Shown: positions 11,502 through 63,961 of the stretch, piece after piece
How positions within the stretch are numbered: position 1 is the first letter of the stretch
Layout: every line of letters begins with the position of its first letter
NCBI GenBank assembly: GCA_029782095.1
Contig: JAKOVL010000117.1
Span: 1 to 64,000 of the forward strand
Direction of reading: 5' to 3'
DNA length: 64,000 nt
DNA from: Bacillota bacterium
GTDB taxonomy: Bacteria > Bacillota > Dethiobacteria > DTU022
Program-made: the position numbers and the translations under genes
The notes under the pieces: generated by a model
The model's input: only the letters and a program-made list of their open reading frames with translations
What the model was told of the DNA's origin: nothing
Database searches by the model: none

Positions 11502-11709
11502 GATTTCAGAATCCAGAATTCAGAAGCATTGCCGGCGTTGTCCAGCTTTCAGCCATAGCAACTGCCGTCTAGCGCCTTATCGTATTGAACCGGGGGCACC
11601 ATGAATTATAAGCTAAACCGGCGGCAACCCGCAAGCTTATGGTTTTTCTGGAAAGCTCTATTACGTTCTTCTCCGGGTTTTCTTCTGGCTTCTGGGTTCT
11701 GACTTCTGT
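11502..11709. repeat. Heptamer repeat element A (purine arm, spacer, pyrimidine arm)
   Basis: Four consecutive 7-base units at 11502-11529 read GATTTCA, GAATCCA, GAATTCA, GAAGCAT. At 11682-11709 four units read CTTCTGG, CTTCTGG, GTTCTGA, CTTCTGT. The second set is the approximate reverse complement of the first, so the arms could pair across a 152-base spacer. Four other intergenic regions in this window carry similar arrays. Confidence 0.75.
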
Positions 11710-11732
11710 TTTTATATTTCCCTTCCCGGCAA

Positions 11733-25271: not shown

Positions 25272-25350
25272 GAAGTGAGAGGTTGGATTTGAGAATCCTG
25301 TCTCCCTGTCTCCCATGCTTTTCTTCTGAATTCTGGCTTCTGGATTTTGC
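25272..25350. repeat. Heptamer repeat element B
   Basis: Purine-rich units GAAGTGA, GAGGTTG, GATTTGA, GAATCCT run in phase at 25272-25299. Pyrimidine-rich units CTTCTGA, ATTCTGG, CTTCTGG, ATTTTGC run in phase at 25323-25350. The arms are separated by only 23 bases, the tightest copy in the window. It lies between the two fumarase subunit genes. Confidence 0.75.
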
Positions 25351-25424
25351 ATTCCCTTCAGAAAACCAAACCCGGCTACAATCTCCTAGCTCCTGCCTCC
25401 TGTAACCGTCTCAGTCTCCTCCCC

Positions 25425-31786: not shown

Positions 31787-31817
31787 TCTTCTGAATTTTT
31801 AGACAACTATCACCATA

Positions 31818-31854
31818 AAGGGGTCGGCCCAAAAGTCATTTGAGACGACCCCTT
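31818..31854. terminator. Hairpin with flanking T-rich tract
   Basis: AAGGGGTCG pairs perfectly with CGACCCCTT around a 19-base loop. On the plus strand it is followed by TAAGTTTGTTTTTTG. No gene ends here on the plus strand. It may be a bidirectional terminator or the remnant of a mobile element end. Confidence 0.5.
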
Positions 31855-32097
31855 AAGTTTGTTTTTTGAGATAAGTTGCTTATAGTACCGGCAAAGGAAT
31901 TTAGAAAATATCAGATGGAAACAGCGGCCATCTTGGCTAGATTCCGATTCTGGCATATGGCCAATTATTTGTATGCAACAAAATATGTAAAAAGGGCTGC
32001 CCTTTCGAGGCAACTCCTCTTCAAAGCCTGCTTTCCCGCTACTCCCGTCTCCTTCCCAATCCCCCCCACCCTAACCCTCCCCCACCAGGGGCTCTTA

Positions 32098-32223
32098 GAA
32101 GTTAGAGGTAAGAGGTTGGAGGTTAGATTAAAAACCATCTCTCAATTCTGTACTTCTGTCTTCTATAGTTGTCGGTGCCGTTTATCCCGCTTTAAAACCT
32201 TTCTCCTGGATACTCAATTCTCT
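32098..32223. repeat. Heptamer repeat element C
   Basis: In-phase units GAAGTTA, GAGGTAA, GAGGTTG, GAGGTTA occupy 32098-32125, followed by GATTAAA. Pyrimidine-rich units lie at 32145-32166 and again at 32203-32223 (CTCCTGG, ATACTCA, ATTCTCT). Between these is a core at 32168-32202 that closely matches the core of element E. A C-rich tract, CAATCCCCCCCACCC, precedes the element. Confidence 0.78.
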
Positions 32224-32302
32224 TAAATCGTCCAAAGCCAGCTTCCCGCTTTTCCTGTGCTCTCTGGCGTTTGCAACTTGGGTGGAAGCGGGGCAGTAAG
32301 AG

Positions 32303-38360: not shown

Positions 38361-38523
38361 GGTTAAACCCACCCCCTGCTTCTCTCCATCTGCAGTGCTC
38401 AGTCAAAGCTTTCCCCGGCTATTCCTGCATTCTAACCTGTGAGCCCAGCAAAATCAGGTGAAACACAGCCCCTCCACCCAAGATCACCAACAAGTACCCG
38501 AAAACTTTTCTTCATCCCTTCTA

Positions 38524-38558
38524 ATACTGGATACTGAATACTGAATTCTGTATTCTTA
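38524..38558. repeat. Heptamer repeat array D (pyrimidine-type only)
   Basis: Five in-phase 7-base units read ATACTGG, ATACTGA, ATACTGA, ATTCTGT, ATTCTTA. No matching purine-type arm is seen in the same gap, so this is a half element or a degenerated copy. It lies between the two mutase subunit genes. Confidence 0.75.
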
Positions 38559-38564
38559 CATAAG

Positions 38565-44167: not shown

Positions 44168-44201
44168 GGGCTCTCTCCTTAAGTTTCCGCCAAATTTTCC
44201 G

Positions 44202-44323
44202 GAAGTCAGAAATCAGACGTCAGAGGTCAGATTAAATCCCCTGTTCCTAAACTTCTGCCTTCTCGAGTTGGCAGTGCCGTTTACCTCGTTTCTAAAACCT
44301 TGCTTCTGGTTTCTGAATACCCT
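44202..44323. repeat. Heptamer repeat element E
   Basis: In-phase units GAAGTCA, GAAATCA, GACGTCA, GAGGTCA run over 44202-44229, followed by GATTAAA. Pyrimidine-type units lie at 44252-44265 (CTTCTGC, CTTCTCG) and 44303-44323 (CTTCTGG, TTTCTGA, ATACCCT). The core at 44267-44300 matches that of element C at 32168-32202, including GTGCCGTTTA and TAAAACCT. This makes C and E clear copies of one dispersed element. Confidence 0.82.
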
Positions 44324-44382
44324 TGGAACGCCTGCAGTCTGCTTGCCTGCCTCTCCTGTATCCTATCTCCCGTATCCTGCTA

Positions 44383-44418
44383 CAATCCCCCCCTCCCCCA
44401 CGAGGGGAGGGGGGATTG
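44383..44418. terminator. C/G-rich hairpin after the thiolase gene
   Basis: CAATCCCCCCCTCCCCC at 44383-44399 pairs with GGGGAGGGGGGATTG at 44404-44418 with one bulged C. It begins five bases after the thiolase stop. There is no T tract, so it may be an RNA-stabilising structure rather than a true terminator. A related C-rich sequence without the pairing arm precedes element C. Confidence 0.5.
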
Positions 44419-44422
44419 AACT

Positions 44423-61698: not shown

Positions 61699-61835
61699 AA
61701 AAGCCCGGGCAGGTAGGTCATGAGCGAAACCTACCCGCCTGGGCTTTTTTCCCTTCGGTGTAGCGCCGGCAGCGGTCGGCGCCTGTACCACTTGGACCAG
61801 TCCCGGATATAACCCCGGCGGAACCCTAGGTACAC
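61699..61835 (-). ncRNA. ykkC-class riboswitch (PRPP-type likely) with terminator, upstream of the purine permease
   Basis: Read on the minus strand, conserved ykkC blocks occur in order: CTAGGGTTCCGCC (61829-61817), GGGACTGGTCC (61804-61794), a GGCGCC/GGCGC helix, then GAAGGGAAAAAAGCCC. The last block is also the first half of a strong terminator (61750-61699) that ends GGGCTTTTG. So ligand binding and termination would compete for one sequence. Among ykkC subtypes, the PRPP-binding one controls purine genes. With a purine permease, purE and purF downstream, that subtype is the best guess. The guanidine and ppGpp subtypes are not excluded. Confidence 0.8.
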
Positions 61836-61907
61836 TTTCCCTCGTAAAAATATGATTTTTTACGATATTTTCTGTTTAGCTGCAGCCAGAAGCCCCTGCA
61901 CCATGGC

Positions 61908-63654: not shown

Positions 63655-63961
63655 AAAAGCAAAAAGATAAGACGATGAAAGGAATTAGTAACCTGGATCG
63701 GGGCGGTTAAGAGAGCCGGATGGAGGAAGAACCTCTTCCGAAGCTGCGATTCCGGTACCGTCGCGCCAGGCGAATGGATCCTCGAGTTGCCGACCGAAAT
63801 TCTTGCGGAAAAGTAGGCTCGGACGGAGCTTTCACCGTTAAAAGAAAGCAGGTCTGGGAAGAGCGCTTCTTCCCGCACCTGAACACAAAGGGGCCTGCCA
63901 TCGATGCAGGCAACCGGGGTGGCACCGCGAGCAAACTCTCGTCCCAGGATGAGAGTTTTTT
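63655..63961 (+). ncRNA. T-box riboswitch, tryptophan specifier
   Basis: The core T-box sequence GGGGTGGCACCGCG is at 63916-63929. A terminator follows: AACTCTCGTCC and GGATGAGAGTT around a two-base loop, then TTTTTT. In stem I, AGTA at 63687-63690 faces GAA at 63772-63774 (loop E). The helix CCTGG (63692-63696)/CCAGG (63766-63770) closes above it. The three bases after GAA are UGG (63775-63777), the tryptophan codon, followed by A. Uncharged tRNA-Trp should therefore turn the downstream gene on. Confidence 0.92.

Follow-up and report, generated by a model that had tools for sequence, protein, structure and literature searches.

Heptamer arrays between genes of the window

The window, the whole stretch of 64,000 nucleotides analysed here, carries short tandem arrays of degenerate 7-base units in several of its intergenic gaps. 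In the divergent gap between dnaE (DNA polymerase III alpha) and a ytrH-like gene, an array whose purine strand is the plus strand (11502-11526, minus) lies 37 nt from the dnaE start, and its TTCTG strand points into that gene. Its partner across the gap, a pyrimidine arm (11679-11712, plus), lies 73 nt before the ytrH-like gene. The gap between the genes for the fumarase alpha and beta subunits holds an array at 25320-25354 (plus), nearly identical in the sister species, and a second array of the TCTCCTG type at 25374-25404 (plus), found with the profile described below. An earlier sequence-only reading had missed the second of these and had placed a purine arm at 25272-25299 (minus). The sequence of that arm is present, but it is weak, falls under the detection limit used, and is missing from both the Tandem Repeats Finder list and the profile array list of the window. 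Across the 120 bp of the interval 25272-25391 there are 4 differences from the sister species (about 97% identity), and the mostly coding block around the gap is about 90% identical; the high identity of the gap, judged from these alignments, may reflect constraint or recent exchange.

Between genes for an amino-acid dehydrogenase and a sigma-54 regulator, a purine arm of the TTTAATCTAACCTCCAACCTC type (32097-32132, minus) is accompanied by a short pyrimidine array (32152-32167, plus) and a further pyrimidine array (32193-32221, plus), both detected by the profile. Arrays thus do occur where a single in-phase run had been described (32145-32223), but the run splits into these two. The purine arm lies within a block of about 420 bp (approximately 31808-32230) that is missing from the sister species. 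This block starts with a hairpin, GGGGTCGGCCCAAAAGTCATTTGAGACGACCCC, at 31820-31852, whose relatives at two other loci (L079 and L092) make it another dispersed palindrome. A TACTGAA-type array (38523-38559, plus), found by both Tandem Repeats Finder and the profile, separates the genes for the methylmalonyl-CoA mutase subunits, and the orthologous site in the sister species carries an array as well. The two gene pairs described earlier as fumarase and mutase subunits were therefore named correctly.

In the gap between acyl-CoA dehydrogenase and thiolase genes, a purine arm (44198-44236, minus) lies 31 nt from the start of the acyl-CoA dehydrogenase gene and is followed by a pyrimidine arm (44285-44320, plus), to which the sister species adds exactly one 7-bp unit. 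An array of the TCTCCTG/TATCCTG type (44352-44379, plus) begins 31 bp past the pyrimidine arm, and a G+C hairpin, CCCCCCTCCCCCACGAGGGGAGGGGGG (44389-44419), resembling published triplex-motif hairpins, closes the assembly. Here too an array was found within the run reported at 44252-44323, which is not one run and has the further array beyond it. No plasmid homologue of this locus was found.

Tandem Repeats Finder reports period-7 arrays in the window at 11507, 11682, 32095, 38519-38523, and 44202, and lag-7 matching along the window marks the same places. In-phase 7-base repeats are therefore present at the intergenic loci for which they had been claimed, with the corrections to their limits given above. 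The genes flanking arrays at the window loci display no functional theme beyond the metabolism of the genome, and no known RNA family was found at the arrays. Two RNA elements elsewhere in the window exceed the Rfam gathering score, a Guanidine-I riboswitch (61734-61840, minus) and a T-box leader (63666-63949, plus).

One heptamer family and its orientation at gene edges

Analyses of the source genome used 781 kb taken as stretches, except for the whole-genome pattern count, and gene calling in these left 466 intergenic stretches totalling 118 kb. This intergenic DNA contains 45 lag-7 segments, well above the 1.2 +/- 1.2 found in dinucleotide shuffles. Lags 14 (17 segments) and 21 (7 segments) likewise exceed background, and other lags yield 0-3. 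A cyclic profile learned from the arrays, T-[TC]-C-T-G-[AGT]-[AC], corresponds to a pyrimidine-strand consensus of T-Y-C-T-G-R-M, in which the TYCTG core is conserved and two positions of the heptamer are free. With a detection threshold of at least 20 bits, this profile finds 118 arrays in the 781 kb, with a median length of 32 bp, versus 3 in reversed sequence. As had been proposed from the window, placement is intergenic (111 of 118 arrays, although intergenic DNA makes up only about 15% of the 781 kb). The arms are also not confined to the window, since a three-unit pattern, TTCTGNNTTCTGNNTTCTG, with at most two mismatches has 142 whole-genome matches versus 3 for the backwards pattern. 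The shuffle, reversed-DNA, and backwards-pattern controls together rule out a chance origin.

When lag-7 intergenic segments are collected de novo, 43 of 48 fit the TYCTGRM profile and 4 of the remaining 5 resemble relatives of it, so that the arms cluster in one family. The sequence-only reading had distinguished GAnnTCA-like from TTCTGAn-like arms. Purine arms are the complement of pyrimidine arms, and a single heptamer family thus lies on opposite strands; two distinct arm families are ruled out because the units are the same.

The order of the arms follows a rule far more general than the few loci from which it was first proposed. Among gaps with two arrays on opposite strands, 65 have the purine arm first on the plus strand and 1 has the pyrimidine arm first; a further 3 gaps hold two arrays on the same strand. 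These counts pool the source genome, its sister, other Firmicutes, and a many-phyla set in which genes are simple open reading frame calls and a few records are Firmicutes. The bias is found in codirectional (55:1), convergent (4:0), and divergent (6:0) gaps. It arises because the TTCTG strand is directed at the nearest gene edge, at starts and ends alike, and single arrays behave in the same way. Single arrays in codirectional gaps point toward rather than away from the gene at 26:6 for starts and 55:20 for ends, and those at convergent gene ends do so at 16:5; for single arrays in divergent gaps the ratio of 7:4 is not a significant polarity. Arrays are commoner near gene ends (175) than near starts (115), and the median distance to the gene is 28 nt at ends and 54 nt at starts. 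Neither a general purine/pyrimidine skew of gaps nor plain purine and pyrimidine tracts can account for the order, as array-free gaps lack such a skew and non-heptamer tracts give the opposite order.

Arrays of the source genus have further structure. A T-rich run tends to precede them, and on the gene side 26 of 115 finish with an in-phase TTCCC unit; 26 of the 30 TTCCC occurrences near array ends are in phase, and this fixed unit resembles a defined boundary. A composite repeat, in which a TTCTG array is combined with a 31-bp spacer, an array of the TCTCCTG/TATCCTG type, and G+C hairpins, is matched at about 30 places, one of them the 44.2k locus. Of the 59 triplex-motif-like G+C hairpins in the 781 kb, 42 lie no more than 200 bp from a heptamer array, and 47 of 115 source-genome arrays have such a hairpin within that distance. 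Nearly none occur near arrays in the stretches of four other array-rich genomes (G017, G085, G076, and G123), which sets the hairpins apart from the general phenomenon. G-quadruplexes are excluded as a cause, as the arrays contain no run of four G3 tracts and none of the 115 is able to form one.

Distribution, turnover, and published relatives

The sister species (G001) is equally rich in arrays. Other relatives searched are mostly poor, with 0-2 matches, and only G017, G028, and G038 are rich. Of 200 genomes from the phylum, 7 are rich, with at least 18 matches and almost none in the control: the source genome (54), G085 (103), G123 (60), G190 (54), G076 (42), G227 (35), and G149 (18). G171 was left out because its control count is higher. 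Exact four-unit arrays occur, by record title and among the matches listed, in Cyanobacteria, Omnitrophota, Planctomycetota, Acidobacteria, Deltaproteobacteria, Nitrospirae, Chloroflexi, Bacteroidetes, Firmicutes, and others, as well as in viral contigs. This sample was picked by pattern, and it therefore demonstrates presence rather than dominance. Other heptamers (AATTATT, GGGAGTA, CTAATGG, GTCATTA, and GTTGCCA) lie near TTCTG arrays at four loci (L150, L156, L205, and L293), and some of these neighbouring arrays make inverted pairs too. Long, near-perfect GGCTTCT arrays at L271 (G017:C121), whose array sequence is shared with L149, look like recent expansions.

Comparison of two species provides a direct view of unit gain and loss. 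The window is syntenic with a contig of the sister species (G001:C49) at about 88% identity. Across 22 orthologous array gaps, 13 have arrays in both species, 5 in the source only, and 4 in the sister only, and the median length difference between orthologous gaps is 21 bp with arrays versus 3 bp without. Alignment gaps are a multiple of 7 in length in 9 of 38 cases inside arrays versus 24 of 505 outside (p = 0.00018). One-unit differences are seen at 44.2k and at L083; at L059 (position 16037) the sister has two arms and the source has remnants, with the centre kept. Blocks of about 420 bp and 213 bp are found in one of the two species only. The sister species retains arrays at most orthologous sites but differs there by whole 7-bp units, so slippage is supported; the earlier reading, in which the units vary while the period is kept, had suggested either expansion by slippage or selection on spacing. 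With units tested leave-one-out, divergence is 10.0% at core positions and 15.2% at variable positions (p = 0.07), and 14.6% in other intergenic DNA, consistent with mild constraint on the core at most.

Several published repeats share features with these arrays. Rehm et al. 2015 (PMC4692102) described GGGAATC heptamers in Xanthomonas and GGGGA(T/C)T heptamers in Nostoc. The Xanthomonas units are heterogeneous and 89-93% intergenic, form 70-75 pairs in convergent orientation, lie about 28 nt from the open reading frame, and favour the non-coding strand upstream and the coding strand downstream; they occupy the same gaps with varying length in two species, and few lie between divergent genes. 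TYCTGRM arrays are alike in being heterogeneous tandem units of period 7, in their intergenic share, in the convergent purine strands of paired arrays, in a purine strand that reads away from the near open reading frame edge at a similar distance, and in occupying the same gaps with varying length in related species. They differ in that their purine-strand unit, CAGAAKY, has no capability to form quadruplexes, which were suspected in that study and central to it, and in that the family was found across many phyla, set against repeats from Xanthomonas and Nostoc. A GGGAATC/GGGGAYT unit appears in TYCTGRM arrays only as the end unit noted above, the gene-side unit in the source genus often being an in-phase GGGAAT.

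MacGregor 2015 (PMC4679880) reported TAACTGA direct repeats in Beggiatoaceae, Cyanobacteria, and Bacteroidetes, with copy numbers of two to six in the Beggiatoaceae genome examined. These are also intergenic heptamers with a patchy occurrence across distant lineages. Their unit is exact, with near variants rare, and they lie mostly just before start codons and are almost never inverted, unlike the degenerate, paired TYCTGRM arrays with their different consensus and their preference for gene ends. The STRR heptamers of Calothrix PCC 7601, as cited in PMC4692102, are likewise tandem heptanucleotides. Mrazek 2007, as cited in PMC4692102 and PMC4679880, found heptanucleotides to be the commonest long simple sequence repeats in many genomes and proposed polymerase slippage for them; as cited there, that class also over-represents period 7 in scattered genomes, yet it is a statistical one without the defined family or placement rule of TYCTGRM arrays. 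The REP/BIME elements and intrastrand triplex motifs of Holder et al. 2015 (PMC4666352) are intergenic and recall the hairpins near many source-genome arrays, but those elements are hairpins and not period-7 arrays. The strings TTCTGAC and TTCTGAA had no match in a bacterial context in the open-access papers searched. The sequence-only reading knew of no described family like this one; that stands for the TTCTG unit in the papers searched and not for the architecture, published for GGGAATC/GGGGATT, nor for heptamers of this kind in general, given TAACTGA. TYCTGRM arrays are a new unit within a known, so far unexplained heptamer layout.

Origin and persistence of the arrays

The most likely account, to which we give an even chance, is that the arrays are degenerate heptamer satellites made by slippage and tolerated at the edges of transcripts. 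Replication slippage in steps of 7 would set the period, and the arrays, having no gene-specific job, would survive at transcript edges because such places tolerate change. The strand rule would then reflect a bias blind to the sequence of the unit, for example selection on strand in 5' or 3' untranslated RNA, a suggestion based on the different heptamer GGGAATC obeying the same rule. Variable positions that diverge like other intergenic DNA, the patchy occurrence, the spread over many phyla, and the polarity in every gene-pair class all support a satellite origin. Against it, slippage alone leaves the strand rule and the recurrence in unrelated phyla unexplained, the slower change of the core may indicate mild conservation, and the in-phase TTCCC end in the source genus looks like a defined boundary.

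An unlikely but better alternative than those that follow is a foldback RNA element whose arms pair in the transcript and serve as an end mark, protection, or processing signal, as in REP-type sequences. The purine-first order, the excess near gene ends, and arms that fold better than mononucleotide shuffles in the source genome (mean z -3.2) would fit such an element. Reversed control sequence folds equally well, however, making the folding z-scores uninformative, and either arm order would fold equally. This order is likewise seen in divergent gaps, where the genes need not share a transcript and the arms need not share one RNA; with the result that follows, this leaves unsupported the idea that the arms of a locus are made to fold on each other. 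Arms of one locus match each other no more closely than they match arms from elsewhere. This result also rules out templated inverted duplication by fold-back copying in the source genus. No terminator-like sites were seen at the two loci scanned.

Somewhat less probable still is that the arrays are what is left of a non-autonomous, MITE- or REP-like mobile element whose terminal repeats were heptamers. The fixed polarity of the arms, the composite repeat, many copies of which have the conserved 31-bp spacer and the G+C hairpins, and the two blocks confined to one of the two species compared are in keeping with this idea. A MITE-type element should recur as a whole unit with terminal repeats, but the centres are mostly unique, the inter-arm sequence having no other copy in the 781 kb at 19 of 27 two-arm loci, and simple arms shorten where they stand and leave the centre in place, as at L059. 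Neither REP (Y1) transposases nor reverse transcriptases track the arrays; over 40 relatives, transposases do not correlate with array abundance, reverse transcriptases likewise show no correlation, and both are rejected as drivers. A protein-binding role, with sites repeated every 7 bases for, say, a single-strand binder of the cold-shock type or a DNA-binding factor, is improbable: the conserved core with two free positions, its slightly slower change, and the fixed end unit in the source genus argue for it, but the slower change is not significant, occurrence is very patchy among close relatives, units vary between lineages, and the strand flips from gene start to gene end.

Beyond the satellite origin preferred here, a wider rule is conceivable, though we hold it tentatively and think it rather less likely than the satellite account itself: unrelated bacterial heptamers may share one arrangement across phyla, with a purine strand that reads outward from the gene at either edge, through a general, sequence-blind process that builds or keeps 7-base units at transcript edges. 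For decades, scattered bacteria have been seen to carry heptamer repeats, with no accepted cause, and the best-studied case had been tied to G-quadruplexes. A family incapable of quadruplexes that keeps the same distance and strand rule over many phyla implies that quadruplex formation is not the general reason. The polarity at gene edges is strong, does not depend on quadruplexes, is common to another heptamer, and is so far without explanation, and the rule is simple and testable with existing genomes and maps of RNA ends.
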